Part shown: in pieces, positions 2,340 through 47,076 of the stretch
Position numbering within the stretch: position 1 is the stretch's first letter
How the letters are laid out: every line of letters starts with the position of its first letter
Source: Magnetococcales bacterium
GTDB taxonomy: Bacteria; Pseudomonadota; Magnetococcia; Magnetococcales; Magnetaquicoccaceae
Reading direction: 5' to 3'
Length of the DNA: 64,000 nucleotides
NCBI GenBank assembly: GCA_015231755.1
Contig: JADGAZ010000024.1
Span: 1-64,000 of the forward strand
The notes under the pieces: generated by a model
Database searches by the model: none
Told to the model about the DNA's origin: nothing
The model's input: only the letters and a program-made list of their open reading frames with translations
Program-made: the position numbers and the translations under genes

Positions 2340-2660
2340 ATGCCCGACTCAAAAACCGAACAACGACGCCGTCACGAACGTTTTTCGTTCCACAACGCCG
2401 TGACCCTGACCCTGGAGGACGGACGCCAGTTCCAGGGAACCGTGGACAACATGGGCTTTGGCGGCGCGTCCATGATGGTCAGTGGGGATCCCCCCGAGAT
2501 CCCGTCCGGAAGCATGGGGAAACTGCGGGTGGTCTTTTTCGGACGTCCCACGGATTATCCCTGTAGCGTGGTGAGTGTCCACGGGAGCAAGCTGGGGATC
2601 AAGATTCTGCGGGCCGACTATCAGGGCGCCCCGGAGGAGATGCTGTCGGTCAAGGAGTGA
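2340..2660 (+). CDS. PilZ-domain protein
   Basis: This single-domain protein of 106 residues has the first PilZ motif near the N-terminus (RRRHERFSF, an RxxxR pattern). The second motif region is DNMGFGGASM, where PilZ proteins usually show (D/N)xSxxG. Here Met takes the usual Ser position, so c-di-GMP binding is likely but not certain. PilZ proteins act as effectors of c-di-GMP in motility, exopolysaccharide synthesis or transcription. The gene stands between ispDF and a convergent sugar-nucleotide epimerase, which gives no functional clue. The GGDEF/EAL protein at 50219 is the only c-di-GMP enzyme in the window. A GAGGA sequence lies upstream of the chosen start. Confidence 0.8.
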   Translation: MPDSKTEQRRRHERFSFHNAVTLTLEDGRQFQGTVDNMGFGGASMMVSGDPPEIPSGSMGKLRVVFFGRPTDYPCSVVSVHGSKLGIKILRADYQGAPEEMLSVKE

Positions 2661-2679
2661 TCCCGCCGACTGGCGGGCC

Positions 2680-4827: not shown

Positions 4828-5163
4828 TCAATACTTTCTCCAGACCTTGTTATGCCTGAAAATCGACTGCCCATTATTGTTTTCGACCGGTGCCGGAGGC
4901 GGAGGCAACGGGAGCCAATGGGTCGGGATCAACTGGGCACGATCCACCATCACCAGACCCTGGGCATTGACCCGTCCCAAAGCCAGATCCTGCCCATCGC
5001 TCACCAGCACCACCGAGTTGGGCCGGGGATGACGCTCACCGATGGGCATCCATGCCTTCTGCATGACCTGCACCAGCTGCTCCCCCACATCCACATCCGG
5101 GGATTCAAACCAGTCGAGAATCCGCTTGGCTTCCTGCAGATCCAATTTTCTGGGCAGTTTCAT
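4828..5163 (-). CDS. Hypothetical protein, 111 residues
   Basis: I do not recognise this protein. The first 85 residues look like a folded mixed alpha/beta domain (charged N-terminal helix, then VVLVSDGQDLALGRV and GLVMVDRAQLIP), and a run of prolines (PLPPPPAP) with a basic tail ends the protein. It has no signal peptide or membrane segment. AAGGGAGAG lies upstream of the ATG, which supports real translation. It is convergent with the YdcH-like gene and divergent from trmB, so the context gives no hint of function. Confidence 0.6.
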   Translation of the reverse strand: MKLPRKLDLQEAKRILDWFESPDVDVGEQLVQVMQKAWMPIGERHPRPNSVVLVSDGQDLALGRVNAQGLVMVDRAQLIPTHWLPLPPPPAPVENNNGQSIFRHNKVWRKY

Positions 5164-5367
5164 CCGCGCCTCTCCCTTGTTTTGTCCATGCGAAAGAGTT
5201 CACACCTCTCCCTTTATTATGAAAGGAAAACCCGATCCGTCAACCGGAGAGTGGATGCATGCGTGAACCCCTCTTTCGATTCCAGGTTCCACCATTCCGG
5301 CCCCGGGCTTGCAGCGGGTGCCTCTTGTTCCGACGCCTTTCATTGTCATGCATGTTAAGGAATCTCC

Positions 5368-6093
5368 ATGACCCACGACACCCCGCCCGCCCCCGCATCC
5401 GACACCTCGCCCGCCTGGAAACCCAAGGTTCACGGACGCAAGCGCGGTTTTCTCACCCCGAAGGAAAAAATCTGGCTGGATGCCACCCTCCCCGACTTCC
5501 AGCCTCCCCAGGCCGACAGCCGCGCCGCTCTGCTCGCCGCCCTCGGGGCCGATCCCGAACGGGGACGGCTGATATTGGAGATCGGATTCGGCAATGGTCA
5601 ATTTCTCGCCCCCCTGGCCGCCGCGCATCCCGAGGACCGGTTCATCGGCGTGGAGGTGTTCCAGGAGGGGATGGCGGCCCTGATCCGACGTCTGCAACGG
5701 GACCAGACCACCAATACCCGCATCATCCAAGAAGATGCCCGGCTTGCCCTGCAAGAGCTGATTCCTCCCTGCTCCCTGGACTGGGTGGTGATCAACTTTC
5801 CGGACCCCTGGCCCAAAAAGCGACATCACAAGCGGCGCATCGTCCAGGCGGAACTGCTGGATCTGCTGACCCAACGCATGGTCCCCGGCGGACTGCTCAC
5901 CCTGGCCACGGACTGGGAGGAGTACGCCTGGTGGATGGCGGAGGTGCTGGAAGCCCACAGCGGCTTTGAAAACCTCGCGGCCCCGGAACGGTTCGCTCCC
6001 CGTCCGGCGTTCTGGCACGAAACCCGCTTCGAGACCAAGGGCGTCCACGCCGGACGCACCATTCACCATCTGGCCTGGAGGCGTTTGCCTTGA
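5368..6093 (+). CDS. trmB: tRNA (guanine-N7-)-methyltransferase
   Basis: TrmB makes N7-methylguanosine at position 46 of tRNAs using S-adenosylmethionine. The 241-residue protein has SAM-binding motif I (LEIGFGNGQFLAPLA), the acidic motif after it (RFIGVEVFQEG) and the family signature NFPDPWPKKRHHKRRIVQ. The N-terminal 35 residues form the basic tail common in the family (KPKVHGRKRGFLTPKEK). AAGGAA lies upstream of the ATG. The MFS gene follows after 114 bases. Confidence 0.93.
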   Translation: MTHDTPPAPASDTSPAWKPKVHGRKRGFLTPKEKIWLDATLPDFQPPQADSRAALLAALGADPERGRLILEIGFGNGQFLAPLAAAHPEDRFIGVEVFQEGMAALIRRLQRDQTTNTRIIQEDARLALQELIPPCSLDWVVINFPDPWPKKRHHKRRIVQAELLDLLTQRMVPGGLLTLATDWEEYAWWMAEVLEAHSGFENLAAPERFAPRPAFWHETRFETKGVHAGRTIHHLAWRRLP

Positions 6094-6207
6094 GAGTCCA
6101 GGTGGAACGTGTACAAAACCTCACATTCAGGATATAAGGTTCATGTTCGGACGGCAGCACGTTCCCCCTTCATCCATGGCTCGAAACGGGATCACCCACA
6201 CCCCCCC

Positions 6208-7449
6208 ATGAAACCCAAAACCACCACCGGCATCATTTTCGTCGCGGTTTTTCTGGATCTGCTGGGATTCGGCATGGTCCTGCCACTCATGCCGTTGTAT
6301 GCGGCCGATCCCCGTTTTGCCGCCACCCCGGCCCAGATCGGCTGGCTGATGGCGATCTATTCGATCATGCAGTTTCTGTGCGCCCCCTACTGGGGACAGC
6401 TTTCCGACCGCATCGGCCGACGCCCGACCCTGCTGCTGGGATTGATGGGCTCGGCCCTGTCCTATCTGGCCTATGGGCTGGCCAACGCGTTGTGGATCCT
6501 GTTCGCGGCCCGGGCCGCCGCCGGCGTGATGGGAGCCAACATCGCCGTGGCCCAGGCGGCCCTGGCGGACCTCTCCCCTCCCGGAGAGCGTTCCAAGGCC
6601 ATGGGCCTGATCGGCGCGGCCTTCGGACTGGGATTCGTCATCGGACCGGCCTTCGGCGGCTGGCTGGCGGAATTCGGCGTGGCGGCGGCTCCTCTGGTGG
6701 CGGCGCTGATCACCGGCCTCAACGCCCTGGCGGCGTTTTATTATCTGCCGGAAACCCGCTCCCCGACACCTACCGGCACCCCATCCCCATCCGGACAGCA
6801 GCCACCCCGCTCCGGACACCCCCTGTTGTCCGCCAATCCCTGGCGTCTGGCGCGACGGTTTCCCGGCGCCTGGATCTCCAGTCTGATCATGGGGGGATTC
6901 ATCACCCTGTTTTCCGCCTTCGAGGTGACGCTGCCGTTATGGGGCAAGGATGCGCGACACTGGGACATGACCACCACCGGTTGGATCTTCACCTTCGTCG
7001 GCGTGATCGCGGTGGCCACCCAGGGCGGATTGGTGCGTCGGCTCATGCCCCGCATCGGCGAAAAACGGGCCGCCATGGCTGGTCTGCTGCTGGTGGTGGC
7101 GGGACTGTTCACCCTGCGCGCCGATGGCTGGCCGCTCCTGCTCGGGGCCTTGGCCCTGATCTCCGTGGGCAGCGGCTTGATCCATCCCTCCCTGTCGGGT
7201 CTGACCAGCCTCAACACCGATCCCGCCTCCCAGGGGAGCATGCTGGGACTGTTCCAGTCCATGAGCGCCCTGGGTCGCTGCCTGGGACCGGTGCTGGGAG
7301 GGGCAAGCTACAACGCGTTGCAAGGAGGCATTTTCGCCCTCACGGCCACGGGGATTGCCGGGGTGCTGGTGGGTTTCGTGCTGACACGCCACCGGATGCG
7401 GGATCTGCGCTCAATAGACGGGACAGGCCCATCACCAGACGCTCCATGA
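6208..7449 (+). CDS. MFS transporter, TetA/multidrug-efflux type
   Basis: The 413-residue protein has about 12 membrane segments and a central cytoplasmic loop rich in Pro, Thr and Ser (residues about 187-210). The drug:H+ antiporter motif A is GQLSDRIGRRP, between segments 2 and 3, and GAAFGLGFVIGPAFGG matches the motif C region of drug exporters. The N-terminal pattern (DLLGFGMVLPLMPLY) is like TetA(A-C)-type carriers. The substrate cannot be told. The start at 6208 has no clear ribosome-binding site. An upstream in-frame start would add a hydrophilic segment and seems less likely. The last 110 bases overlap the 3' end of the convergent holA. Confidence 0.85.
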   Translation: MKPKTTTGIIFVAVFLDLLGFGMVLPLMPLYAADPRFAATPAQIGWLMAIYSIMQFLCAPYWGQLSDRIGRRPTLLLGLMGSALSYLAYGLANALWILFAARAAAGVMGANIAVAQAALADLSPPGERSKAMGLIGAAFGLGFVIGPAFGGWLAEFGVAAAPLVAALITGLNALAAFYYLPETRSPTPTGTPSPSGQQPPRSGHPLLSANPWRLARRFPGAWISSLIMGGFITLFSAFEVTLPLWGKDARHWDMTTTGWIFTFVGVIAVATQGGLVRRLMPRIGEKRAAMAGLLLVVAGLFTLRADGWPLLLGALALISVGSGLIHPSLSGLTSLNTDPASQGSMLGLFQSMSALGRCLGPVLGGASYNALQGGIFALTATGIAGVLVGFVLTRHRMRDLRSIDGTGPSPDAP

Positions 7450-32413: not shown

Positions 32414-33526
32414 TCAACCGAAGGCGCTGACCGGCAGAATGATGTTGGCGGCCACGCAGCAGAGGCCCACCACGAAGAACATGATGCGATCCAATACAAA
32501 GGCCATGGCCTTGTCATCCTTTTTGACGAAAATATAATTCGAGATCAAGGAGAGGGCGATGGTCAGAAAGATGGTGGCCATGCCGAAGCCCGCCACATAG
32601 TCCACCAGCCCGAAGGAGCCGGAGGGGGGCAGGATGGAGTTGGCCACATACGAGTTGGCCACCGCGCCGAAGAAGGCCGCCGATGGCAGGGAAAAACGCG
32701 GTCCCACATCCGACGGCTTGACGAAAAAGTTGGAAAGCGCCAACGCCAGGGCCGCGAACAAGGAGATGAAGATCTTGGCATAGACCCCCATGCCGCTGCG
32801 CTGGATTTCGATCCCGACCACATACTGGGTAAAGGTTTTCTTATCGGTATCCCCCTTGCGCGGATCCCCATAGGAGGACTTGTAGGTATGGGGTTTGGAG
32901 GTATTGCTGTTCTTGATCAGATTGAAACCCGGAATCTTCACCCGGGAACTGATGTTGGAAGTCGGGTCCGCCACATAACGCAGTTTGGTCCCGTCCCGGG
33001 CGCCGTCTTCGATGAAGATGTTGAGCATGTGGTTTTCGATCGGCACCCGCATGGTATCGAAAAATTTCAAAAATTTCGCGGAAACCCGGAATTTCTGATA
33101 GTGGGTCTGATCACTGCCGTGATACTCCTCCAGCAGATCCTTCTTGACGATGGTGCCATCCACGATGACGAACTTGCTGCCCGGATCGATCTCTTTGGGT
33201 CCGTTCCAACTGAACCAGAGATAAAAATTGGCACTCCAGGAGGAGTCCTTGATCGACAGACTGTCGATGCTGTCCACATACGAGCCAATCTTGACCTTCA
33301 CATAATCCCCTTGTTCCGGCAAAGGATCCGGAGGGGTATGTCCGGGTTCCACCTTGGTGGGATCCATGCGCGTCAGATGGTGGGAACTCGCGTCGTTCTT
33401 GTTGACGGACAGCACCGATGCACTCAGATGAATCACGTAGGCATAGACCGCCAACGTGATGATCGCCACCAGCAAGACGAGGCTCTTCTTGCCCGACTCC
33501 AGTGCAGCCCAAGTCTGAAAAAACAT
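32414..33526 (-). CDS. Pentameric ligand-gated ion channel-like subunit with an N-terminal membrane anchor
   Basis: The 370-residue protein has an N-terminal membrane segment (about 14-38) and an extracytoplasmic beta-rich domain of about 200 residues. The domain carries Cys-loop-receptor features: GSYVDSIDSLSIKDSSWSAN leading to FYLWFSWNGP, and a Pro-loop-like MRVPIENHMLNIFIED. Four membrane segments end the protein (about 248-270, 280-300, 306-335 and 347-367). The order matches bacterial pentameric ligand-gated channels, but the putative M2 (SLPSAAFFGAVANSYVANS) is unusual and Gly/Ala/Ser-rich. AAGGAG precedes the ATG at 33526. It follows the binding-protein/channel fusion by 70 bases on the same strand, so the two may form one complex. 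Family assignment is by pattern, not search. Confidence 0.72.
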   Translation of the reverse strand: MFFQTWAALESGKKSLVLLVAIITLAVYAYVIHLSASVLSVNKNDASSHHLTRMDPTKVEPGHTPPDPLPEQGDYVKVKIGSYVDSIDSLSIKDSSWSANFYLWFSWNGPKEIDPGSKFVIVDGTIVKKDLLEEYHGSDQTHYQKFRVSAKFLKFFDTMRVPIENHMLNIFIEDGARDGTKLRYVADPTSNISSRVKIPGFNLIKNSNTSKPHTYKSSYGDPRKGDTDKKTFTQYVVGIEIQRSGMGVYAKIFISLFAALALALSNFFVKPSDVGPRFSLPSAAFFGAVANSYVANSILPPSGSFGLVDYVAGFGMATIFLTIALSLISNYIFVKKDDKAMAFVLDRIMFFVVGLCCVAANIILPVSAFG

Positions 33527-33596
33527 GCCATTTTCTCCTTTTCGATTCAATGGTTGCCGGTCCAACCGGACTTCCGGCAACCCCGCGGATGGTTTT

Positions 33597-35924
33597 TTAT
33601 TCGGCGAAATAGATTCCAAAGGCAGTCATGAGTCCATAGACAATCACGGAGACAAAATTGGCGCCGATGCTAAGTTTGCGATTCCACATTTTGGCTTGAT
33701 CCTTCTGACCTTCCGAAATCATTCTTTGCACGACGATGTTGGAGAAAATCATCGTCACCACAAAGGCGTAGGCCAGCAGGAAGTAGTAATCGGCAAACAT
33801 CGTATAGCCCACCTTCGGGAAGGTGTTCTTCTGCGACATGTGATACACCAGAATACCCACCAAACCGGAAAGGGACGCATTGATCCGGGGGGCGAACTGA
33901 TCCACAGGCACCCACAGGATCAACAGATTGATCCCCAGGATAATCAGCAAAGGCAGGAAGAAGGTGTAGAGGTAGGGTTGCAGGATGCGCTTGATGTCAA
34001 TTTCAAGATTGACCGTCGAATAGTAGACCGGGCTTTTGTACCCCTTGAACAAACGGTAATCCGGATTCCCGAAGGTGGAGGCATAACGAAACAGATTGGA
34101 GAAGACTTCACGCCCTTGATAGTCCCACTCCTGTGGTTTGATATCCTTGATGGGCGTATCATCCATATGGCGCGAGTCCGGCACCAGCATGAGATGGGTT
34201 GAATTCTTGTTCATATGGCCGATACTCAAACGCAACGTCTGAGAATCAAAAGGAAAAGCGGCCAGATTGAACGGCGTGTTGAGGGTCAGGCGTTTGTTGT
34301 AGGAGCGAAATTTGGTCGCATGGGACAGATCCTCCATGAACAGGACGGATTTTTCATTGGAGGCGTTGATGGAAACAATTTTTTCAATATCCTGCACCGC
34401 CAATTGACTGGAGGTCCACTTGAACCACATGAACAGGTCCACATTCCACATCATATCCTTGATGTTGACATCGGTGATTCTGACGATATCCACCCCGACA
34501 AACACCACATCGACCAGATGATAGGGGACACGATCAAAAATCGCGACATAGCCTTTATGTATCCGCTCATCCAACTCCTTGAGGACATACTCCTCCCGGG
34601 GCTTGACAAGTTGCAAAGGCGCCACCTTGTAGCGGCCCTTCTCGATTTTTGAGACATAAATATCACGGGGGACACTGCGATTGCCTGTCACGCCTGCTTT
34701 CGCATCGGAGGTCGCATGCGGCATGGGTTTGTCAGCCAGCTTGGATCCCGCCGCCTCTCCTGTTTCCTGGGCTCCTTCCGGGCGCTTGCTGGTTTTTGCC
34801 AGGTACTGGTCAACATACTCCTTTGTTTTGTCATGCTTGTTCTTGAAATAAAGCATGCCGGTAACGCCGTTGATGGCATCCTGCCAATCAATATTGCTCA
34901 GAAATTCCCGAACGCTGGCACGACTGACCGCCTTCCCGGAATCCGGCTTTTCCAACCCTTCGATGGTTTTGGAAAGCAACAGGAGCGAGTCCCAGGTCAT
35001 GGCCGCCGCGAACGTGGGTTTCTTGTGATATTTCTTCTCGTAATCCCTGGCGAACATCGAAGCGCTTTCGTTGGCGATGTCCCACAAAAAGGGCGAGGTC
35101 ACATACACGCCATCCGTGTATTCTTCCGACATTTCGAGGAATTTGTCATTGGTCCAGTTGGCTGTCGCCACCACCGGCTGCTTGATGCCCTGCTCACGCA
35201 ACTGCGGCAGGACCACCAACCCGGTCTCGGAACGGGCCAGCACGACCACCGCGCCAAATTGTTTATTCATGGCGGCATCGGACAAATTCTTGGCTGCCCA
35301 ATCCTTGTCACTCAACTCCCGTTCGGCAGGAACGATTTTGGTGACGGTCAAGTTGATGTGGGCCGCTTTGTCCATAAAGGCCTTTTTCAGATTCAATCCC
35401 ATGTGACCCGTATTGTGGACCAACAGGATGTTATCTTTTTTCAGGACTTCCTTGGTATAGACCGCCAGAAAAGCCCCCTGTTCCTCTTCCGTCACATTCA
35501 GGGCGAATGCCGACTGATTGGCCTCCAACAGCTCTTCACCCGTCACATAGGGGGAAAGAAAAGGGATCTTGGCGGCGTTGAAGACTTTCGCGGTCGCCAA
35601 GGCCGTGGCCGGATAGTAGTGCCCCATGACGGCAAGCAGGGCCTCATCCTTGACCAACTCATTGGCAACGGCTGTGGCCTTTTCAGGATCATCGAAATCA
35701 TCCCGGACCAACAGTTCCAGTTTGTCGCCATCCCGCCCAGAAGATTGATTGTATTGCTCCACAAACAACTCCGCCGCACGCTGGATCGGAATCCCTTTTT
35801 CCGCGCTGTGACCAGTCAACGGGGCCAACACACCAATCTTGAACGTCTTGGCCATTGCGGTGCCGCCGGGAAACATCACCACCACCATGACCAATGGCAG
35901 CAACCATTTCAACAATTTATTCAT
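33597..35924 (-). CDS. Periplasmic-binding-protein domain fused to a pentameric ligand-gated ion channel
   Basis: The 775-residue protein has a signal peptide (1-25, ending TAMA). Residues 27-375 form a branched-chain amino-acid-type binding domain (KIGVLAPLTGHSAEKGIP, AALVMGHYYP-like loop, VVLARSETGLVVLPQL, MTWDSLLLLSKTIEGL). After a hydrophilic linker (about 376-420), a Cys-loop-receptor extracellular domain follows, with VDIVRITDVNIKDMMWNVD leading to LFMWFKW and the Pro-loop FNLAAFPFDSQTLRLSI at about 552-568. Membrane segments M1-M4 lie at about 647-672, 677-696, 705-732 and 750-773; M2 is FAPRINASLSGLVGILVYH. The Cys pair of animal receptors is absent, as usual in bacteria. It would place a solute-sensing module on top of a pentameric channel in the inner membrane. 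Confidence 0.88.
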   Translation of the reverse strand: MNKLLKWLLPLVMVVVMFPGGTAMAKTFKIGVLAPLTGHSAEKGIPIQRAAELFVEQYNQSSGRDGDKLELLVRDDFDDPEKATAVANELVKDEALLAVMGHYYPATALATAKVFNAAKIPFLSPYVTGEELLEANQSAFALNVTEEEQGAFLAVYTKEVLKKDNILLVHNTGHMGLNLKKAFMDKAAHINLTVTKIVPAERELSDKDWAAKNLSDAAMNKQFGAVVVLARSETGLVVLPQLREQGIKQPVVATANWTNDKFLEMSEEYTDGVYVTSPFLWDIANESASMFARDYEKKYHKKPTFAAAMTWDSLLLLSKTIEGLEKPDSGKAVSRASVREFLSNIDWQDAINGVTGMLYFKNKHDKTKEYVDQYLAKTSKRPEGAQETGEAAGSKLADKPMPHATSDAKAGVTGNRSVPRDIYVSKIEKGRYKVAPLQLVKPREEYVLKELDERIHKGYVAIFDRVPYHLVDVVFVGVDIVRITDVNIKDMMWNVDLFMWFKWTSSQLAVQDIEKIVSINASNEKSVLFMEDLSHATKFRSYNKRLTLNTPFNLAAFPFDSQTLRLSIGHMNKNSTHLMLVPDSRHMDDTPIKDIKPQEWDYQGREVFSNLFRYASTFGNPDYRLFKGYKSPVYYSTVNLEIDIKRILQPYLYTFFLPLLIILGINLLILWVPVDQFAPRINASLSGLVGILVYHMSQKNTFPKVGYTMFADYYFLLAYAFVVTMIFSNIVVQRMISEGQKDQAKMWNRKLSIGANFVSVIVYGLMTAFGIYFAE

Positions 35925-36156: not shown

Positions 36157-38697
36157 TCAACGGGCCATGGTGAAATAAAAGGTGCTGCCCTTTCCCACTT
36201 CGGACTCCACCCAGACCTCTCCTCCGTGACGCTCGGCGATCCGTTTGCAGATGGCCAAGCCGATACCGGTACCCGGATGGGTACTTCGGGTATGCAGCCT
36301 TTGGAAGATCACGAAAATACGCTCCTGATGACGCTCCTCGATGCCGATGCCGTTGTCCCGCACCGAAAAACGCCAGAAGGATTCCAACGCCTCCACCCCG
36401 ATATGCACCCGAGGCGCCTCTTCGCCGTGAAACTTGAGGGCATTGGCAATCAGGTTTTGGAACATGCGCACCAACAGGAACGAATCCCCCAACAATTCGG
36501 GCAAGGGCTCCCGGGTGATCACCGCGCCGGACTGGGTGATGGACGTAGCCAGATTGCGCAACACCTGATCCACCACCCGTTCCACCGAGATCAGCGTCAG
36601 GGGGGCGCCGTGGGTGTTGACCCGGGAAAAACTCAACAAGGCTTCGATCAACTCCTGCATGTGGCGGGTGCCATCGACCATGTAATCGATGAACTGATCG
36701 GCTTTTTCGTCCAACTGGCCCCGATAGCGCCGGGAAAGCAGTTGCGCGAAGCCGCTCACCTGCCGCAACGGCTCTTGTAGATCGTGGGAAGCCACATGGG
36801 CGAACTGCTGCAAATCCCGGTTGGAACGCTCCAGTTCCAAGGTGCGCTCCGCCACCCGTTTTTCCAGAAAGACGTTGAGCTGCCGTAATTCCTCTTCCAT
36901 GCGCTTGCGCTCGGTGATCTCCGTGGCAATGGCGCACACCGCCGTGGTCAGGCCCCGAGGATCGATCAGAGGGAATTTCACCACGATGTAGGTGCGCACC
37001 CCATCGGGATGGATCCAGTTCTCCTCCACTTCGCAAGGCCCCTCCCCCAGAGCCTGGGCGTCGCTGACACGGGCGCGCTCCGCCATTTCCACCGGAAAGA
37101 GATCCTCGTCCATCCGCCCCAGACACGCCGCCTCCCGCACCCCGAACAACTCTTCAAAACGCCGGTTGATCAGCAGATACCGACCCCGGGGATCCTTGAG
37201 GGTGATCACGGTGCGGGAGTGGTCCAAAATCCCCTGCAAACGGCTCTGACTGGCGGTGAGGGACTCCATGGCCCAGCGCAACGCCTGTTCGGCGTGATGG
37301 CGTTCGGTCACGTCCCGGAAGATCCCCTGGATCACCCGCCGTCCCCCCAGACGGATCACCCCGGCATTGATCTCCACCGGAATCCGTTCCCCGATACGGT
37401 TCACCACCTGGACATTGGCGACAAAACCGCCGCCGCTTTCCACCTGACTGCGGAAAGTCTCCTGATAGCGCGCCCGATCCTCGGGGGGATGCAGCCGGCT
37501 TTGGTGCATGCCGACGATCTCGGCCATCGGCATTTTCAACAGAGTTTCCGCCTGTCGGTTGGCATCGAGGATCAGACCGGTGTCCGCGTCGGCCACGATG
37601 ATGGCATCCCGGGCCGACTCCATCAGCAGACGGAACTTCTCTTCGGAACGGGTAAGCCGTTCCGCGGCGCGCCGGGCCTCGGTCACATCCCGGGCCAGCA
37701 GCAGATGTCCCACCGGACGCCGCTCCCGATCCAGAATCAAGGAGACACGCACCTCCAGAATCCGTCCCCCATGGGCCAAGGGATCATGGGACTCGAACTG
37801 TTCGTGACCCACCCGGCCCACCCGGGTCAAACCGGCCTCCAGTTGTTCCCGGCTCACCCCCAGACGGTCATGGAGATCCCACACCCGACGGCCCACCACC
37901 TCATCCACCCGCAAGTGGAACAACCGTTCCGCCGCCGGATTGAAAATCCGTACCACCAGCGCCTCATCCGTGGCCACGATCGCCAGATCCGACGCCGTGA
38001 ACACCAAATTTTCCAGCATGGTGGCCTGTTCCTGGAACGCATTCTGGCTGTGTCGCCGCGCCTGCTCCGCAATCCGCAAACGACCGCTCATGCGCCACGC
38101 CAGCCAACCCCCGATGCCGAACAGGCCCGCAATCAGTCCCAAACCCACCCAGGTCACCCAGCGCAACTGCTGATCGGCCTGCTGGCGCAGTTCGATGGCC
38201 TTGTTATTGGCAAAAAACAAAATCGTGTCGCTGGTTTCAACCATCCGCTGAAATCGTCTGTCAGTTTCCAAACGCATGACTTGGAGAGCCGTCTCCACCC
38301 CCCGATCCCGCCGGGCCACCAGGATGTCGCGATTCAACGCGATCCAGCCCGTCAAGGCCTCCCCGAAAGCCCGCACCTGGGCCGGATCCCCCAGATAACG
38401 CTCCTGAACCTGATGCCAATCCTCCCGCGCCTTCTGCTCCTGCCCTTCCAGACGCGTGGAGAGCCGCTCCCAATCCATCTCCTGCTCCTGCAACGACTCC
38501 ATCACCCCCAGACGCATGGCCGCCGCCTGCTCCCGAACCCGCAAGACAGCATTGGAAACGGCGAAAGGATGATGATGGATCTGCTCCGTCAATCCCGACA
38601 ACCGCTGCATGCGATCCAACACCAACCCGCCGACACCGATCACCCCGACAACAAACACCACCAATCCCATCGCGGCACGCCTGGCGTTGATTTCCAT
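36157..38697 (-). CDS. Membrane-bound multi-PAS histidine kinase
   Basis: The 846-residue protein has two membrane segments (about 9-28 and 178-198) enclosing a helical periplasmic domain of about 150 residues. At least three PAS domains follow (around 225-345, 350-465 and 475-600; for example RRVWDLHDRLG, DAIIVADADTGLILDANRQA and TVITLKDPRGRYLLINRR). The kinase core carries its His in LQQFAHVASHDLQEPLRQVS, the subtype found in phytochrome-like kinases, and an ATPase domain with ANALKFHGEE, DNGIGIEERHQ and GTGIGLAICKRI. No receiver is attached. It is six bases after the hybrid kinase gene on the same strand, so the two are likely one operon. Confidence 0.9.
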   Translation of the reverse strand: MEINARRAAMGLVVFVVGVIGVGGLVLDRMQRLSGLTEQIHHHPFAVSNAVLRVREQAAAMRLGVMESLQEQEMDWERLSTRLEGQEQKAREDWHQVQERYLGDPAQVRAFGEALTGWIALNRDILVARRDRGVETALQVMRLETDRRFQRMVETSDTILFFANNKAIELRQQADQQLRWVTWVGLGLIAGLFGIGGWLAWRMSGRLRIAEQARRHSQNAFQEQATMLENLVFTASDLAIVATDEALVVRIFNPAAERLFHLRVDEVVGRRVWDLHDRLGVSREQLEAGLTRVGRVGHEQFESHDPLAHGGRILEVRVSLILDRERRPVGHLLLARDVTEARRAAERLTRSEEKFRLLMESARDAIIVADADTGLILDANRQAETLLKMPMAEIVGMHQSRLHPPEDRARYQETFRSQVESGGGFVANVQVVNRIGERIPVEINAGVIRLGGRRVIQGIFRDVTERHHAEQALRWAMESLTASQSRLQGILDHSRTVITLKDPRGRYLLINRRFEELFGVREAACLGRMDEDLFPVEMAERARVSDAQALGEGPCEVEENWIHPDGVRTYIVVKFPLIDPRGLTTAVCAIATEITERKRMEEELRQLNVFLEKRVAERTLELERSNRDLQQFAHVASHDLQEPLRQVSGFAQLLSRRYRGQLDEKADQFIDYMVDGTRHMQELIEALLSFSRVNTHGAPLTLISVERVVDQVLRNLATSITQSGAVITREPLPELLGDSFLLVRMFQNLIANALKFHGEEAPRVHIGVEALESFWRFSVRDNGIGIEERHQERIFVIFQRLHTRSTHPGTGIGLAICKRIAERHGGEVWVESEVGKGSTFYFTMAR

Positions 38698-38703
38698 ATC
38701 CGT

Positions 38704-41700
38704 TCAGACTCTCCCCTCCGATTCCGTCACGCCGAGCCGTTCGGCCAGTTTCTCCAGCGCCTTGAGGGCACCTTCAAAGTCATACCGGTCCATGCACTCC
38801 CCGACGGCAGGCAACCACTCCCGACACTCCCCGTTCCCGGCACTCAACACCGTTTCCAACCCCTTCAGACAACGCTCCGCATCCAGATCGTTGTGACTCA
38901 ACCGTTCCCGCAACGCCTCGATCCACTCCGGAATCGTCCCCTCCGGCCCCTCGGCCCCCGCTGACAAGGGATCGACAGATTCCGTCTCCGGCTCCAGCAC
39001 CTCGGGCAAGGCAGCCACAGACCGGCACAACCGTGCGCAAGCCGCCTCGAAATAACCCAACGCCTCTTCCGAGGGGATCTCCCCGGCATGGATGGTCTCT
39101 TCCATCTCCCCCGCCAGCCCCCGGATCAAACGCGCTCCCAGATTGCCGGCCATACCCTTGACGCCATGCAGCAACGCCCCGGCCTCCACCAACGCGGCAG
39201 GCCCGGATCCGGCCAGCAGGGTGCGCAACTGCGTGGTGACATCCCCATGGTCCCGGCAAAACGATTCCAGCAGCCGACGCAATACCAGACGCTTGCCCCC
39301 CAGACGTTCCAAAGCCTCCTCCAGATCCACCCCCTCCACCCCATCGGGGGGAAAGGGATCGACTCCGACCGGTGCCGCCATACCCGAAGTCGCCACCTCC
39401 CCGGCAAAAACCGGTCCGGTCCGGGGGGAGAGCCACCGGGCCAACACCACACCCAACGCCCGACGCTCGATAGGCTTGGCGAGATAATCGTTCATCCCCG
39501 CATCCAGGCAACGCTCCCGGTCTCCGGGCATGGCCTGGGCGGTCATGGCCACAATCGGCAACGTGGCGCAATCAGGCATCGAACGGATGCGACGGGTGGC
39601 GGTCAAACCATCCATCACCGGCATCTGCAGATCCATCAACACCCCGTCGAACGCCTCCCGCGCCACCCGCTCCACCGCTTCCACCCCGTTGCCGGCGATC
39701 TCCACCTTCAGGCCAAAATCCGCCAGGATCTCCCGGGCCACCATCTGGTTGAGCAGGTTGTCCTCCACCAAAAGCAAACGGACTCCGGCAAAAAAAGGAT
39801 CGCACACCCGCTCCCCACCGGAGGACTCCAGCACCGGTCCGTCCTGGGAGTTGCAGGCCTCTTCCTCCCCGACACGCCCACTCCCCAACAGCTCGACTTG
39901 CAAAGACTTCGGCAGAATCGGCCTGTCCAGCCACGCATCCACCTCCACCGGTTTCCGCTCCTCCTCCGGATCCAGCGGCACAGGCGCCACAATCCGCACC
40001 CCGGAAAACACCCCCCGCAACGCCCCGCACACCCGAATCCGCTCCCCCTGCTCCACATCCAGAATCACCCGGGCGCACGGCTGACTGCCAAACGACTCCA
40101 GCGCCGCTTCCGACGTGGCGAACACCCGCACCGCCATGCCCAGTTCCGTGGTCATCCGGGCCAGGAACCGTCGAGCGGTCATGCGTTCGGAGAGAATCAA
40201 CACCTCCACATCCGTCAACGCCGCCCCCCTGTGACCCCATTCCCCCACCGCCGGATCACGGGCCAACGACAATTCGCAAATGAACTCGCTGCCCACCCCC
40301 GGGGCGCTCACCACCCGAATGCCTCCCCCCATCCGTTCCACCAGCCGCTTGCTGATGGCCAACCCCAGACCGGTCCCGCCGTATTGACGGGTGATGGAAC
40401 CATCCGCCTGGGAAAAGGGCCGAAACAGACGGGCACACTGCTCCTGGGTCATGCCGATGCCGGTATCCCGCACGGAAAAACGCATCTGAACCGCCGTGCG
40501 CTCCTCCCGGACCACCGACACCCCCAGAATCACCTCGCCGCCCCGATGGGTAAACTTGACCGCATTGCCCAACAGGTTGATCAGAATCTGGGCCAGCCGC
40601 AGCGGATCCCCCCGCAATCCCGCCGGAAAGGCGAACGGGCGATCCAGCCACCATTCCAGCCGCTTTTCCATCATGGAGACGTTAATCAGATCGATCACCC
40701 GCTGCAGCACATCGTCCACCGACAAGGGAATGGCGTCCAGGGTCAAACCACCCGCCTCGATCCGGGAGTAGTCGAGAATATCGTTGATGATCCCCAACAA
40801 CTGCCGGGAGGCCCCTTCCATCCGGACCAGATAGTCCCGCTGTTTGGCATCCAGCGCGGTCTGACGCACCAGATCCCCCAATCCGATGATGGCGTTCAAG
40901 GGGGTACGGATCTCATGGCTCATGCGGGCCAGAAACTCCCCTTTCACCCGATCCCGCTCCAACTGTTCGCTTTGCTGCCGGATCCGCTCTCGGGAAAGAC
41001 GCAGATCCTCCACCATGACATTGAAACTCTCCGCCAGAAAAACAAATTCCCGCACCCATCCCAGATCGATGGAGGTATCCAGCGATCCGGCCCCCACATC
41101 CCGGACCGCCCCCGACAGCTTGACCAGTGGATCGAAGACAATCCGTTTCAAAGCGGCTTGCACCAGCAGCAACACCAGCAGGGCGCTCACCAGCATCACC
41201 GCCGCCACGGCCCACCCCATGGGACGGGCCGTGGCGGCAAACTCCTCGGCCCGGGTCACCGCGAACAGACGCAATCCCTGGGGCAAACGAATGCCCATCA
41301 CCAAAGCCTCCCCCCCGGACCACTCCACCCGCAGCGGTTCCACCCCCGGCTCCTCCTCCTGCGATCCCGCCGCCAGCCGGGTCCAAAGCGCCGGAGCGAG
41401 CAGACCAAAAGGCAAATCCGCCCAACCGGGGGCGAACACCACCTCTCCCGTCTCGTTGGTGACCAACAGGAATCCCCCCGCGCCAATCCGGGTCGAATGG
41501 ATCCGGTCGTGCAGAAAATCGGGCCGCGTGGTGATGGCCACTCCTCCCCGCCAGGTTTCCGGCTCGGTGGGATCCTGGCTCGCGCCGCGCCCAAACACCT
41601 TCCGGGCCACCAGAAAGGCCCATTCCCCGTTATCCGGATTGCGGAACAACTCCATGAACACAGACTGCCGATTGACCGCCGCAAACCGGTTGAACCAGGG

Positions 41701-42150
41701 GGTATTGCCTTCATGTTCCGCCCGGTTGGGCAGACCGACCACCGCGTGGCGGGCCTCTTCGGTACCATCGGGCAACAACACGCGCATTTCGTAATAATCG
41801 GGATAAACCTTGGCGTAACTGGCGAACAGATTGAGCAAAGGCAGTTGCAAAATGCCGTAGCGGCTTTCTTCATCTTCGGTGGCGAGATAGTCTTTCAACA
41901 ACGGATTGCCGGCGAACAACGCCACATTGGCCCCGACCGTGGCCAAACGGGCCGACACCTCCCCACGGGTATCGCGCAACAGTTGTCGCACCGTATTGAA
42001 GGCGTGCTGGGTGGCGGTACGGGTCACCTGTTCTGCGGCGATCCACCCCACGGTCAGCAACGGTACGCTCACCAGGGGCAGCAACACCAGAATCAGATAA
42101 CTGCGCAGGGCCAACCCGTTCGGAAACAAACGTCTCCACAGGAGGACCAT
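38704..42150 (-). CDS. Hybrid histidine kinase with periplasmic sensor, HAMP, two receivers and HPt
   Basis: The 1148-residue protein has membrane segments at about 16-37 and 315-340 with a Cache-like periplasmic domain between them. HAMP, coiled coil and HisKA follow (His in FLARMSHEIRTPLNAIIG), then an ATPase domain (LLGNAVKFTH, DTGIGMTQEQ, GGTGLGLAIS). A degenerate receiver comes next (about 665-760; no clear acidic pocket), then a full receiver (LLLVEDNLLNQMV, Asp in VLMDLQMPVMDG) and an HPt domain with His in LLHGVKGMAGNLGA at about residue 993. This is the BarA/EvgS-type phosphorelay layout. The terminal 100 residues are unassigned. AAAAGGTAAAG precedes the start. The solute-binding protein gene ends 46 bases upstream. 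Confidence 0.9.
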   Translation of the reverse strand: MVLLWRRLFPNGLALRSYLILVLLPLVSVPLLTVGWIAAEQVTRTATQHAFNTVRQLLRDTRGEVSARLATVGANVALFAGNPLLKDYLATEDEESRYGILQLPLLNLFASYAKVYPDYYEMRVLLPDGTEEARHAVVGLPNRAEHEGNTPWFNRFAAVNRQSVFMELFRNPDNGEWAFLVARKVFGRGASQDPTEPETWRGGVAITTRPDFLHDRIHSTRIGAGGFLLVTNETGEVVFAPGWADLPFGLLAPALWTRLAAGSQEEEPGVEPLRVEWSGGEALVMGIRLPQGLRLFAVTRAEEFAATARPMGWAVAAVMLVSALLVLLLVQAALKRIVFDPLVKLSGAVRDVGAGSLDTSIDLGWVREFVFLAESFNVMVEDLRLSRERIRQQSEQLERDRVKGEFLARMSHEIRTPLNAIIGLGDLVRQTALDAKQRDYLVRMEGASRQLLGIINDILDYSRIEAGGLTLDAIPLSVDDVLQRVIDLINVSMMEKRLEWWLDRPFAFPAGLRGDPLRLAQILINLLGNAVKFTHRGGEVILGVSVVREERTAVQMRFSVRDTGIGMTQEQCARLFRPFSQADGSITRQYGGTGLGLAISKRLVERMGGGIRVVSAPGVGSEFICELSLARDPAVGEWGHRGAALTDVEVLILSERMTARRFLARMTTELGMAVRVFATSEAALESFGSQPCARVILDVEQGERIRVCGALRGVFSGVRIVAPVPLDPEEERKPVEVDAWLDRPILPKSLQVELLGSGRVGEEEACNSQDGPVLESSGGERVCDPFFAGVRLLLVEDNLLNQMVAREILADFGLKVEIAGNGVEAVERVAREAFDGVLMDLQMPVMDGLTATRRIRSMPDCATLPIVAMTAQAMPGDRERCLDAGMNDYLAKPIERRALGVVLARWLSPRTGPVFAGEVATSGMAAPVGVDPFPPDGVEGVDLEEALERLGGKRLVLRRLLESFCRDHGDVTTQLRTLLAGSGPAALVEAGALLHGVKGMAGNLGARLIRGLAGEMEETIHAGEIPSEEALGYFEAACARLCRSVAALPEVLEPETESVDPLSAGAEGPEGTIPEWIEALRERLSHNDLDAERCLKGLETVLSAGNGECREWLPAVGECMDRYDFEGALKALEKLAERLGVTESEGRV

Positions 42151-42196
42151 TCTTTACCTTTTTTCCCTTTGTTCTTTGACCTAAAAGGTCAAACCT

Positions 42197-43273
42197 TCAA
42201 TTGAGCAAAGCCCGCAGGATCTCCTTGTAGCGCCGGTCGATCCGGGGAGGAGGCTTGGCGACGAACTCGGAACGGGTCAACACCGTCTCTGGAGGATAAA
42301 TCACCGGATTGTTCCGGTGTTCGGGGCGCAACAACGGTTCGGCCTCCTGGTTGACGGTGGCAAAATGCAGATGCTGCGCCAACTGGGCCGCGTGGGCCGG
42401 TTCGTGGAGAAACTGAATCAAGGCGTAGGCGTCAGACTTGCGGGTCGAACCCGCCGCCACCACCAAACAATCCACCCACAAGACACTGCCTTCCTCCGGC
42501 ACGATGAATCCGATGCGATCATCCAGATCCTTCAGAGTCAAAGCGTCGCCGTTGAACACCGAAGCCAGCCACGCCTCGCCGGTCACCAACGCCGACTTGC
42601 TGTCAAACGATGGATAACCATAGGCACGCACGAAAGGTTTTTGCGCCATCAGCATGCGCCTAGCCTCCTCGATGGCCGACTCCTCGTAATGATTCCAGGA
42701 GTGTCCCATGGCCTTCATGGCCATGCCCATCAAATCCACGGACTCTTTTTCCAAGATGATGCGCTTACGAAAGCGTTCCTCGGGCTGCATCAACCCTTTC
42801 CAGGTGGTGGGGGGATCCGGAACCAGATCCTGCCGATAGGCGATGCCGAACGTGCCCCACAACACCGGCGCGGCAAACCCTCGCACACCGGGATACGAGT
42901 CGAGCCAACGGGACGGGACATGTTGCAGATGCCCGACCTCTGCGGGTCCAAGGGGCGCGAGCCAGTTTTTCTTCACATAACCTTGCACCCGCTCGCCACT
43001 GACCACGAACAGATCGAATCCCTTGCCCTGGGTACGGGCGAGGAGTTCGTCACGGGTCTCGTCGGTTTCAAACTCCACGGTGCGCAGATGGATGCCGGTC
43101 TGCTCCTCAAAACGCCGCGCCAGGGATGGATCCATGTAATTGGGCCAGTTGAGCAACACCAGTTCCCGTTTCTCCCCGGCGGACGACAGGCCCATCGATC
43201 CGGCCACCACCAGACACAGCAGCCCCACCATCCCGATCCATCGAACCCGCGCTCCCATGCCAGAACGTTTCAT
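42197..43273 (-). CDS. PotD/PotF-like periplasmic solute-binding protein
   Basis: The 358-residue protein has a signal peptide (hydrophobic residues about 12-28, AG-rich cleavage region). Its mature start ELVLLNWPNYMDPSLARRFEEQ-like sequence (first part ELVLLNWPNYMD) matches polyamine-binding proteins of the PotD group, as do GFDLFVVSGERV and [29 protein letters not shown] precedes the ATG at 43273. No permease or ATPase gene for a polyamine transporter is nearby. The gene is instead followed by two sensor kinases, so it may serve as a sensory binding protein handing the solute to the Cache-containing kinase. The ligand is not proven. Confidence 0.85.
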   Translation of the reverse strand: MKRSGMGARVRWIGMVGLLCLVVAGSMGLSSAGEKRELVLLNWPNYMDPSLARRFEEQTGIHLRTVEFETDETRDELLARTQGKGFDLFVVSGERVQGYVKKNWLAPLGPAEVGHLQHVPSRWLDSYPGVRGFAAPVLWGTFGIAYRQDLVPDPPTTWKGLMQPEERFRKRIILEKESVDLMGMAMKAMGHSWNHYEESAIEEARRMLMAQKPFVRAYGYPSFDSKSALVTGEAWLASVFNGDALTLKDLDDRIGFIVPEEGSVLWVDCLVVAAGSTRKSDAYALIQFLHEPAHAAQLAQHLHFATVNQEAEPLLRPEHRNNPVIYPPETVLTRSEFVAKPPPRIDRRYKEILRALLN

Positions 43274-43454
43274 TTCCCCCTCCCCATCGGACAGCGAACC
43301 GAACGACCGATCCCTCACGGTCCCGTGGCGCAACACCGATAAAGCCGTTTGCCGCCTTGCCTGCATTCGTGATACCCTAACAAAAGGGTTGCAAACCCGT
43401 CAATCGGTATCCACGACAGCGTGCATTTCTTGAGAAAATACGGCGAAAAAACGA

Positions 43455-44441
43455 ATGAAGGCCCATCCACCGACCACCAACCGGTCGCAATACGATACCA
43501 CCTTCAAGGATCTGTTCGAGCAGCCGCCCCAGCACCTGTTGCACCTTTTGATCGGTCGCCGGGCCGTGGGCCAACTGCCGGTGGAGTTCGCCTCCACGCA
43601 AAAACGCATTCCGGACTGCCTGTTTCTGCTGGAAGACCAGGCGCTGTTCCACCTGGAATTGCAGGGCAACCCGGAACCGATGGAATGGCGCATGTTGATC
43701 TACCGCGCCTTGATCCGGCAAAGATATCCGGAGAGTCCATTGTTCCAGAAGGTGCTTTATGTCGGCGAGAAAAAATGGCGCACCCGGGGTGTCATCGATG
43801 AACCGGATTTGTCGTTTCGTTTTGAGGTGGTGGATATTCGCGACATCGACTGTCGTGAACTGCTGGCCAGTCCGACGTTGGAGGAGAATATACTGGCGGT
43901 CTTGTGTCGCATGGATCAACCCCGCCGCACAATCCGCAAAATTTTGTTGCGCATCAGCGAACGGCCACCCAAGGCCCGCTCCGACGCCCTGACACGATTG
44001 TTGCTGCTCTCCCGACTGCGCAAACTGGAACACACCATTCAAACGGAGGCTACCGAGATGGCACTGACATTCAATGTGATGGAAAATGAAGTCCTGGGTC
44101 CCATGCTCCTGAAAGAACAACGACGACAAAACCAGAAAGCGCGTCAGGAAGGACGCCAAGAAGGACGCCAAGAAGGGCTCCAAAAAGGGCTCCAAGAAGG
44201 ACGCCAAGAAGGGCTCCAAAAAGGGCTCCAAGAAGGACGCCACACAGGACTCAAAGAAGGGCTCCAAGAAGGACGCCGAGAAGCGGCGGTATCGATTCTG
44301 TTGCGCCAGATGAGGCGACGTTATGGTCTGGTGCCGGAGTGGGCGGCGCAACAGGTCGAACAGGCGGATCTGGAGCGTCTGCACGACTGGAGCGAACGCA
44401 TTCTGGATGCCGAATCCCTGGAAGTATTGCTGACCAAATGA
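43455..44441 (+). CDS. Rpn/PD-(D/E)XK nuclease-family protein with C-terminal QEG repeats
   Basis: The 328-residue protein resembles the Rpn (recombination-promoting nuclease, formerly transposase_31) group. The N-terminal PYD-like segment is SQYDTTFKDLFEQP, and the nuclease core pattern is RIPDCLFLLE followed by FHLELQGNPE, giving an Asp...Glu-x-Gln site. Residues about 232-276 consist of tandem four-residue units QEGR/QEGL/QKGL, common at the C-terminus of this family. A helical tail ends the protein. Rpn proteins are DNA endonucleases that stimulate recombination, and some act as phage-defence toxins. It is divergent from the solute-binding protein gene and 43 bases before leuS. The ribosome-binding site is weak. 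Confidence 0.8.
   Translation: MKAHPPTTNRSQYDTTFKDLFEQPPQHLLHLLIGRRAVGQLPVEFASTQKRIPDCLFLLEDQALFHLELQGNPEPMEWRMLIYRALIRQRYPESPLFQKVLYVGEKKWRTRGVIDEPDLSFRFEVVDIRDIDCRELLASPTLEENILAVLCRMDQPRRTIRKILLRISERPPKARSDALTRLLLLSRLRKLEHTIQTEATEMALTFNVMENEVLGPMLLKEQRRQNQKARQEGRQEGRQEGLQKGLQEGRQEGLQKGLQEGRHTGLKEGLQEGRREAAVSILLRQMRRRYGLVPEWAAQQVEQADLERLHDWSERILDAESLEVLLTK
44145..44280 (+). repeat. Tandem 12-bp/36-bp repeats inside the Rpn-like gene
   Basis: Units of 12 bases encode QEGR, QEGL and QKGL. The three form a 36-base higher-order unit present twice without a mismatch (44157-44192 and 44193-44228), with degenerate units on both sides. The array is in frame, so slippage would add or remove whole QxGx units. 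Confidence 0.95.
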
Positions 44442-44484
44442 CGGGTTGAAACCCGCGCCCTTGTCTTCGGATGGAATGGAAACG

Positions 44485-47076
44485 ATGAAAAAATACAATC
44501 CCCAAGCAGTGGAAGCCAAATGGCAACGGATCTGGGAGGAAGAGCAGAGCTTCCGGGCTGACGAAAACGGAAGCGGTGAAAAATTCTACCTTCTGGTGAT
44601 GTTTCCCTACCCTTCGGGGCGGATCCATATGGGGCATGTGCGCAACTACGCCATCGGCGACGCCATCGCCCGTCAGAAGCGGCTGCTGGGACACGCCGTG
44701 CTGCAACCCATGGGGTGGGACGCCTTCGGCATGCCGGCGGAAAATGCCGCCATCTCTCAAAAGAAACATCCCCAATCCTGGACCTACGACAACATCGCCG
44801 CCATGCGGCGGGAACTCAAGTCCATGGGACTAGCCTACGACTGGACGCGGGAGTTTGCCACCTGCGATCCGGATTACGCCCACTGGGAGCAGATGCTGTT
44901 TCTCAAGCTGTACGAAAAGGGACTCATCTACCGCAAGCAGTCCCTGGTCAACTGGGATCCGGTGGATCATACCGTGCTGGCCAACGAGCAGGTCATCGAC
45001 GGCAAGGGATGGCGCAGCGGCGCAACGGTGCAACGCAAAGAGCTGTCCCAATGGTTTCTCAAGATCACCCACTACGCGGATGAACTGCTGGCTGGAATCG
45101 ACACCCTCACGGGCTGGCCGGATACGGTGCGCACCATGCAGACCCACTGGATCGGCAAAAGCCACGGGGTGGAGTTCGCGTTCGCCATCGAGGGGGAAAG
45201 CGCCACCCTGCCGGTCTACACCACCCGCCCCGACACCATCATGGGGGTGACGTTTTGTTCCATCGCCCCGGAGCATCCCCTGGCCACCCAGGTGGCGGCC
45301 CGGGATCCGGCGGCCGAGGCCTTCATCCGGGAATGCCAACAGAGCGGCACCAGCGAAGAGACCCTGGAACGGCTGGAAAAAAAAGGATATCCCACCGGTC
45401 TGCTGGCCATCCATCCTCTGACCGGAGAGCAGATTCCCATCTTCATCGCCAACTTCGTGCTGATGAGCTACGGAACCGGCGCGGTGATGGCGGTACCGGC
45501 CCACGATCAACGGGATTTCGAGTTTGCCCGCTCCCATGGATTGCCCATCCGGGTGGTGATTCAGCCCGCCGGGACGACCCTTGATCCGGCCACCATGAAC
45601 GAAGCCTACACCGGCCCCGGCATCCTGACCGCCTCCGGCCCCTTCAACGGTCTGGACAACGAAACCGCCAAAAAACAGGTGGCGGAACGTTTCGCCTCTC
45701 TGGGGATCGGTCAAGCCAAAATCCAGTACCGGTTGCGGGACTGGGGCATCTCCCGGCAACGTTACTGGGGCAATCCGATTCCCTTCATCCACTGTCCCCA
45801 CTGCGGCGTGGTGCCGGTGCCGGTCCCGGATCTGCCGGTACGGCTGCCGGAGGATGTGCTGGAGTTGTTCGGTCAGCCGGGCAACCCTCTGGACCGCCAT
45901 CCCACCTGGAAAACCGTCTCCTGCCCGGTGTGCCGGGAGCCGGCCCGACGGGAAACCGACACCATGGACACCTTCATGGAGTCGTCGTGGTATTTTCTGC
46001 GTTACTGCTCTCCGGATCTGAAAACCGCTCCCCTGGACCGGGAGCGGGTGGATCACTGGATGCCGGTGGATCAATATGTCGGCGGAGTGGAACACGCGGT
46101 CCTGCATCTTTTGTACGCGCGCTTCTTTCACAAGGCGCTGCGGGATGTGGATCAGGTGGGCTGCGACGAACCGTTCACCCGTCTGCTGACCCAGGGCATG
46201 GTGCGCAAGGATACCCACCGCTGCCCGCAACACGGCTGGCGCTATCCTTATGAAAGCACGGAACGAGACGGCAAACTGCTCTGCGCCGACTGCGGATCGC
46301 CCATCCAGGTGGGCCGCAACGAAAAGATGTCCAAAAGCAAACACAACGTGGTGGATCCCAACGAGATCATCCAGGGATACGGGGCGGATACCGCCCGCGT
46401 CTTCATGCTGTTCGCGGCCCCGCCGGAACAGGATCTGGAGTGGAGCGACACCGGAGTGGACGGGGCGTGGCGTTTTCTCAACCGGTTGTGGCGTCTGGTC
46501 CATCAGATCGTCGAACGGACTCCCGGCGCGGCGGCGGCTTGCTCCATGCCGGAGGCTCCCGCCTTGCGGACGCTGCGGGGCAAGACCCACGAAACCATCG
46601 ACAAGCTGACCCGGGACATGACCCGCCATCAGTTCAACACCGCCATTTCGGCAGTCATGGAGCTGATCAACGCGGCCAGCGCCCATTTGAATCAGGCGCA
46701 AACCGAGGTGTTGAGCGGCGAGGAGGCGGCCACCCTGCGGGAGCTGGCGGAAACCGTGGTGGTGGTGATGAATCCCTTTGCCCCCCACATCACGGCGGAG
46801 TTGTGGCAAGAGGCGCTCGGCATGCCGGACCGGCTGCACGCGGCCCGCTGGCCCCAGGCCGATCCCGCGGCTTTGGTACGGGCGGAGCTGACGGTGGTGG
46901 TGCAGGTCAACGGCAAGCTCCGAGCGCGGATCACCGTGCCCGCCGACGCCCCGGCGGCCATGCAGGAGCAGATGGCCCTGAACGACGCCAACATTCAGCA
47001 GCATCTGGCGGACAAGAGCGTGGTCAAGATGGTGACCATTCCTGGCAAACTGGTCAACATCGTGGTCCGTTCGTAA
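44485..47076 (+). CDS. leuS: Leucyl-tRNA synthetase
   Basis: LeuS charges tRNA-Leu. The 863-residue class I synthetase has the HIGH-type motif in PYPSGRIHMGHVRNY, the editing (CP1) domain with TTRPDTIMGVTF and GTGAVMAVPAHDQRD, a zinc-binding Cys set (CPHCGVV and CPVC), and the KMSKS loop as EKMSKSKHN. The C-terminal anticodon-binding domain ends VNGKLRARITVPAD. The start at 44485 fits the family N-terminus (KKYNPQAVEAKWQ); an upstream in-frame ATG at 44476 is also possible. The lptE-like gene follows after 36 bases, a common order in proteobacteria. Confidence 0.97.
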   Translation: MKKYNPQAVEAKWQRIWEEEQSFRADENGSGEKFYLLVMFPYPSGRIHMGHVRNYAIGDAIARQKRLLGHAVLQPMGWDAFGMPAENAAISQKKHPQSWTYDNIAAMRRELKSMGLAYDWTREFATCDPDYAHWEQMLFLKLYEKGLIYRKQSLVNWDPVDHTVLANEQVIDGKGWRSGATVQRKELSQWFLKITHYADELLAGIDTLTGWPDTVRTMQTHWIGKSHGVEFAFAIEGESATLPVYTTRPDTIMGVTFCSIAPEHPLATQVAARDPAAEAFIRECQQSGTSEETLERLEKKGYPTGLLAIHPLTGEQIPIFIANFVLMSYGTGAVMAVPAHDQRDFEFARSHGLPIRVVIQPAGTTLDPATMNEAYTGPGILTASGPFNGLDNETAKKQVAERFASLGIGQAKIQYRLRDWGISRQRYWGNPIPFIHCPHCGVVPVPVPDLPVRLPEDVLELFGQPGNPLDRHPTWKTVSCPVCREPARRETDTMDTFMESSWYFLRYCSPDLKTAPLDRERVDHWMPVDQYVGGVEHAVLHLLYARFFHKALRDVDQVGCDEPFTRLLTQGMVRKDTHRCPQHGWRYPYESTERDGKLLCADCGSPIQVGRNEKMSKSKHNVVDPNEIIQGYGADTARVFMLFAAPPEQDLEWSDTGVDGAWRFLNRLWRLVHQIVERTPGAAAACSMPEAPALRTLRGKTHETIDKLTRDMTRHQFNTAISAVMELINAASAHLNQAQTEVLSGEEAATLRELAETVVVVMNPFAPHITAELWQEALGMPDRLHAARWPQADPAALVRAELTVVVQVNGKLRARITVPADAPAAMQEQMALNDANIQQHLADKSVVKMVTIPGKLVNIVVRS

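Follow-up and report, generated by a model that had tools for sequence, protein, structure and literature searches.

Fusions of a periplasmic binding protein (PBP) to a pentameric ligand-gated ion channel (pLGIC) were reported two decades ago. In that description, amino-terminal type-I PBP (PBP-I) domains were fused to bacterial Cys-loop receptor homologues of M. magnetotacticum and B. japonicum, a role in chemotaxis was proposed, and homopentamers were assumed because most genomes have one gene (Tasneem et al. 2004/05, PMC549065). The bacterial pLGIC DeCLIC has an extra N-terminal domain above its ligand-binding domain (LBD) that affects gating (PMC9897478, PMC12664993); no N-terminal domain of any other pLGIC has been characterised so far, even in part (PMC12664993). 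The DeCLIC domain consists of two beta-rich lobes, whereas the protein described here has a bilobed PBP. ELIC and GLIC have the same LBD fold, Pro-loop and four membrane segments (M1–M4) as this protein but lack the N-terminal PBP domain. Ionotropic glutamate receptors are tetrameric, with an unrelated pore and a second (PBP-II) binding domain. Their N-terminal PBP-I domain, as in the present fusion, is located above a ligand-gated pore (PMC549065).

The window analysed here, a 64,000-nucleotide stretch of a Magnetococcales genome (3.84 Mb, 44 contigs, 98% complete), carries such a PBP-I–pLGIC fusion gene at 33597..35924 on the minus strand. It is a divergent further example of the architecture known since 2004, now in a Magnetococcales genome, and by description it is like the M. 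magnetotacticum and B. japonicum proteins in having an N-terminal PBP-I, a pLGIC LBD and four transmembrane helices in one chain. The architecture is not new, since PBP-I fusions to bacterial Cys-loop channels are found in Tasneem et al. (PMC549065), and the first-pass annotation had correctly mentioned occasional N-terminal fusions among the bacterial homologues. The window member differs from the two earlier ones in its occurrence in Magnetococcales, in having another pLGIC gene next to it and in its diverged PBP pocket.

The fusion was assigned from its reading frame together with Pfam, structure search, alignment, profile and AlphaFold2 (AF2) results. The single continuous 775-residue frame previously noted is uninterrupted, running for 775 codons from ATG to TAA, and neither a stop nor a frameshift separates the domains. 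All of the following parts lie on the minus strand: a signal peptide recognised by sequence inspection (35847..35924, residues 1–26, MNKLLKWLLPLVMVVVMFPGGTAMA, with a hydrophobic segment at residue 7), the PBP-I (Peripla_BP_6) domain (34605..35846, residues 27–440), the extracellular Pro-loop LBD (33984..34589, residues 446–647) and four helices in pLGIC order (33603..33980, residues 649–774). The AF2 model shows a bilobed PBP to approximately residue 440, a beta-sandwich and helices at residues 649–671, 677–701, 707–738 and 742–774; however, it was run as a monomer on a 17-sequence alignment (mean pLDDT 71, pTM 0.70), so its domain-to-domain arrangement is not reliable. Residues 380–415 (34680..34787) form a low-confidence insertion (pLDDT <50), which in the alignment is longer in the window protein and that of genome G013 than in the other fusions. 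Between these two proteins, substitutions are mainly synonymous (dN 0.36, dS ~2.3, near saturation), as in a gene that is under purifying selection.

The membership of the C-terminal half in the pLGIC family was established by several searches. This half matched ELIC at 8e-8 in a single-sequence search of solved structures, and a profile built from the LBD and transmembrane domain of 13 relatives (profile A4) matched solved pLGICs, e.g., the GLIC-GlyR chimera 4x5t, at 6.2e-22 over both of these domains. The LBD is a beta-sandwich followed by M1–M4, with M2 as the pore helix (33822..33896, minus strand, residues 677–701, R680 at 0′), and the M2-M3 loop (FPKVGY) is intact, as in conducting pLGICs. 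The claim of a Cys-loop-receptor domain with a Pro-loop FPFDSQ at about residue 557 was borne out, as the motif occupies residues 557–562 (34239..34256, minus strand), and its P558, F559, D560 and Q562 are invariant among 16 aligned proteins, which have the domain order in common as well; the four membrane segments in channel order also reappear as the four AF2 helices after the LBD. Thus, the pLGIC matches are significant and no stop separates the domains, the two points on which the first-pass annotation had staked its two-domain reading. A homologue with the identical domain order, which it had proposed to look for, was found in another genus (L069), with 56% identity across the whole protein.

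The Pfam models Neur_chan_LBD and Neur_chan_memb score below their curated cut-offs on the fusion (17.9 versus 26 and 18 versus 28.1 bits, respectively), but this miss is an annotation threshold and not a biological criterion, and it is overridden by the profile and structure evidence. The PF02931 search gave zero matches in the source genome and likewise zero in the control genomes, divergent members scoring under the cut-off, and it is therefore uninformative. Both pLGICs of the window are below the Pfam curated cut-offs, and automatic annotation may list the binding-protein domain only, or nothing. In M2, the window protein has A-2′, P-1′, R0′, N2′, S6′, V9′ and V13′, in a prime numbering that we take from a manual alignment to the GLIC/ELIC M2. 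Since the cytoplasmic end (-2′/-1′) lacks an acidic ring and position 0′ is basic, this segment weakly hints that the window pore would not be cation-selective.

With a probability of about 0.7, the fusion forms a homopentameric channel that is gated or tuned by its PBPs as they close around a periplasmic solute; the pentamer, the conduction, the solute and the gating direction are inferred. Each Pro-loop-receptor subunit would carry its type-I PBP above a canonical LBD, and five subunits would form the pore. When the bilobed PBP closes, it would exert a pull on the short linker (approximately residues 440–446) and on the beta-sandwich below, and the pore would thereby shift between closed and open states; in this way, the fusion would convert the concentration of a solute into a flow of ions.

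The first-pass annotation had missed that the window contains a second, stand-alone pLGIC gene on the same strand (32414..33526, minus strand, 370 aa), starting 70 bp downstream of the fusion. Its product has an N-terminal hydrophobic segment, an LBD (residues 76–243) and M1–M4 (residues 247–369), and it is homologous to ELIC and GLIC: the profile match to ELIC reached 4.3e-17, the profile-profile match to the fusions reached 99.7% (E 2.5e-25), and the AF2 model, a beta-sandwich with four helices, matched GLIC at 2.4e-14 in Foldseek, with global TM-scores of ~0.45–0.57 that leave the relative domain arrangement uncertain. Close orthologues (80–86% identical) have dN/dS values of about 0.08–0.10, by which the gene is judged to be under purifying selection. 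Relatives of it also occur in Deltaproteobacteria, Burkholderiales and WS1 records. The spacer between the two channel genes (33527..33596, minus strand, 70 bp) contains an inverted repeat, GGTTGCCGG...CCGGCAACC, and GGAG ahead of the next start; the hairpin was not clearly better than those of shuffled sequences (z only -1.3), and promoter and terminator scans were near background. The stand-alone protein was considered as an obligate heteromer partner of the fusion and was rejected as such, because in eight other genomes (G008, G004, G007, G036, G020, G077, G084 and G010) its gene has no fusion next to it. One of them, G004, has two divergent stand-alone pLGIC genes that are transcribed towards each other (L063:1240-2355, plus strand, and 2365-3375, minus strand).

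Co-assembly of the two proteins is the first of the alternatives to be weighed: as in animal receptors, they could form a heteropentamer, where the fusion would do the sensing and the small protein would be a pore subunit. This is suggested by the tandem arrangement on one strand, by the GGAG that precedes the second gene and resembles a Shine-Dalgarno sequence, and by the fact that both products are real pLGICs maintained by selection; moreover, the single-gene basis for the homopentamer assumption of Tasneem et al. does not hold in the window. On the other hand, the small protein must work alone in the genomes where no fusion adjoins it, the two proteins are only ~22–23% identical and differ in their M2 sequences, and the tandem pair was seen in the window only. 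In G010, a homologue of the multi-PAS histidine kinase encoded upstream of the fusion in the window directly precedes the stand-alone gene with ~140 bp between, at the place where the fusion sits in the window; hence, the fusion is not required at this kinase/stand-alone locus, having been either gained in the window or lost in G010, and the small channel is independent of it. Co-assembly is regarded as unlikely, and the homopentamer is retained for the fusion.

The head was examined in the same way. Pfam assigned Peripla_BP_6 to residues 28–358 (E 1.7e-41), and the N-terminal part of the AF2 model superimposed on LivJ (4gnr) in Foldseek with a TM-score of 0.89 over 419 columns, which places the domain end at about residue 440 rather than 375. 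Therefore, of the binding domain originally proposed at residues 27–375, the domain stands and its end does not; by sequence and by bilobed fold it is a type-I periplasmic binding protein. The fold is that of the branched-chain and GABA binding proteins LIVBP, LivJ and Atu2422 (E down to 5e-22), but these are free periplasmic proteins of ABC transporters, whereas the window domain is fused and lacks the equivalents of LIVBP Ser79 and Glu226. Three LIVBP residues, Ser79, Thr102 and Glu226, which we take to be ligand contacts, correspond to P105, T128 and A255 in the window protein, so two of the three are lost, and to P, S and N in that of G013. The pocket is thus not that of an alpha-amino-acid-binding PBP-I of the LIVBP type, and the earlier description as a branched-chain-amino-acid-type domain applies to the fold and not to the pocket. 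This loss makes an amino-acid ligand doubtful for the window fusion, whose head probably binds something other than an ordinary alpha-amino acid, or might even be unliganded.

The relatives of the fusion provided a wider comparison. In named genomes, almost all of them are in Magnetococcales metagenome-assembled genomes, in addition to Ca. Magnetaquicoccus inordinatus. Trees, which are unrooted as to fusion events and undated, separate clades A, B and M. Clade A comprises the window protein, the G013 protein (56% identical over the whole protein) and those of G006 and G010 (about 31–33%), and it has no fixed neighbour gene. In G010, the fusion C-terminus is on another contig and was matched across the contig break by homology; this clade A fusion is followed after ~50 bp by a tandem pair of voltage-gated (Ion_trans) channel genes (L132:223-1224 and 1231-2043, plus strand, G010:C135). 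Clade B, found at L071 and L080-L099, keeps the equivalents of Ser79, Thr102 and Glu226, and for this reason its heads probably bind alpha-amino acids. Directly 3′ of the clade B gene, usually within 100 bp, lies a gene resembling a methyl-accepting chemotaxis protein (MCP), and this was so at every one of the 19 distinct loci whose downstream sequence is intact (e.g., L092:10973-12532, plus strand). The product of this neighbour has two transmembrane segments, mostly weak TarH and MCPsignal matches and a degenerate chemoreceptor signalling domain. Such a gene is absent at the window locus; nevertheless, the kept pocket and the constant linkage in clade B support a sensory role for the PBP-pLGIC protein class.

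These data also bear on a second alternative, in which the PBP would not gate the channel at all but would either concentrate and present solute to the canonical pLGIC site, a preliminary ligand concentration having been suggested by Tasneem et al. (PMC549065), or form a structural cap that binds ligand hardly or not at all. The pocket losses in the window and G013 proteins favour this possibility, and the N-terminal domain of DeCLIC, although of a different fold, influences gating kinetics. However, decay would be expected of an idle cap, and all proteins of clades A, B and M have a PBP of conserved length and fold, with the amino-acid signature preserved in clade B. A non-gating head is therefore considered improbable, and gating by PBP closure remains the preferred reading.

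Upstream of both channel genes, a run of genes on the same minus strand (36157-44519) comprises a multi-PAS sensor histidine kinase (36157..38697, 846 aa), a hybrid histidine kinase (38704..42150, 1148 aa) with a dCache-like sensor, a HAMP-like region, REC and Hpt, a solute-binding protein of the SBP_bac_8 type located ~50 bp upstream of the hybrid kinase (42200..43366, 389 aa) and an unknown 380-aa gene. The dCache and HAMP matches of the hybrid kinase are below their cut-offs. This run is possibly one sensory cluster. The two kinases and the solute-binding protein directly upstream could be read as a sign that the fusion is a non-conducting membrane receptor signalling to these kinases, but this is very improbable, as M1–M4 and the FPKVGY loop are intact and there is no cytoplasmic output domain.

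The search with the channel half of the fusion also returned frames of ~1000 aa combining a PBP-I, a Pro-loop LBD and an MscS pore. The pore was identified by MS_channel_2nd matches of 1e-12 to 4e-21, and the LBD of these chimeras matched that of the fusions in a profile-profile comparison at 99.2% (E 2.5e-19, 147 columns including the Pro-loop region). Genome searches with profile A4 retrieved these frames at about 1e-13 to 5e-20. A profile of the chimera LBD (A5) had no direct pLGIC match in the PDB, so the homology of this domain rests on the profile-profile match and on the A4 genome matches. The source genome itself carries two chimeras (L075:6865-9963, plus strand, G000:C27, 1033 aa; L133:7967-11053, minus strand, G000:C16, 1029 aa), in which the PBP and Pro-loop module is placed on an MscS pore, whereas the window protein has a pLGIC pore. 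To our knowledge, canonical MscS and bCNG channels have no PBP/Pro-loop head. Some chimeras of another Magnetococcales genome also bear cNMP domains, as bCNG does. One variant (L134:2106-5534, plus strand, 1143 aa) has a C-terminal cNMP-binding domain according to Pfam, and in another (L135:13858-17268, minus strand, 1137 aa) it is presumed from length and grouping. Such versions would sense from both sides of the membrane. In a split version (G130), a PBP-LBD gene (L136:6366-8513, 716 aa) and an MscS-cNMP gene (4923-6350, 476 aa) are adjacent on the minus strand, ~15 bp apart.

MscS chimeras were found in about 20 Magnetococcales genomes and in one unrelated genus, where 5 of the 7 sampled genomes carried them. 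Since several of the latter lie on chromosomes assembled as a single contig, they are very unlikely to be artefacts of assembly. An example from such a single-contig genome (L156:6371-10294, minus strand, 946 aa) is located just downstream of an ABC_sub_bind-type gene. In the tree of the LBD, the MscS chimeras group together as a separate clade with a support of 0.96; the PBP part taken by itself does not recover clade M as a monophyletic group. Since the same head is combined with either a pLGIC or an MscS pore, and in one case is encoded separately next to an MscS gene, the PBP-LBD pair is probably the sensing unit and the pore an interchangeable output. It is likely, to judge from these gene architectures, that PBP-I plus the Pro-loop domain constitutes an exchangeable sensor cassette on two unrelated pore types, and that the chimeras would be ligand-gated channels, opened or tuned by a periplasmic solute and some of them also by a cytoplasmic cyclic nucleotide. 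MscS of E. coli is heptameric. If the cassette reading is true, the Pro-loop domain would have to function within rings that differ in symmetry, or else outside a ring altogether. Searches of the open-access literature on PBP + Cys-loop LBD + MscS chimeras and on the pLGICs of magnetotactic bacteria retrieved no account of the chimera, and a cassette shared by two pore families is apparently new.

In sum, the initial observation holds and its interpretation is plausible, although the architecture had been described before. What this analysis adds is a stand-alone channel paired with the fusion, a PBP pocket that has diverged, a sister clade linked to MCP-like genes and, most notably, the occurrence of the same head on MscS pores. 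The genes concerned escape the Pfam pLGIC cut-offs, and annotation would read just binding proteins or mechanosensitive channels. The fusion is a relative of the receptor channels of nerve cells in a bacterium of a magnetotactic order, and its locus is a compact test, in which a pLGIC with the fused head adjoins one without it. The comparison set adds clade B, with its intact amino-acid pocket and linked chemoreceptor-like gene, and the relatives with MscS pores. If the MscS chimeras are ligand-gated, the LBD of Cys-loop receptors is tied neither to its own pore nor to five-fold symmetry, and such an untying, if true, bears on the evolution of allosteric coupling and on receptor modularity.
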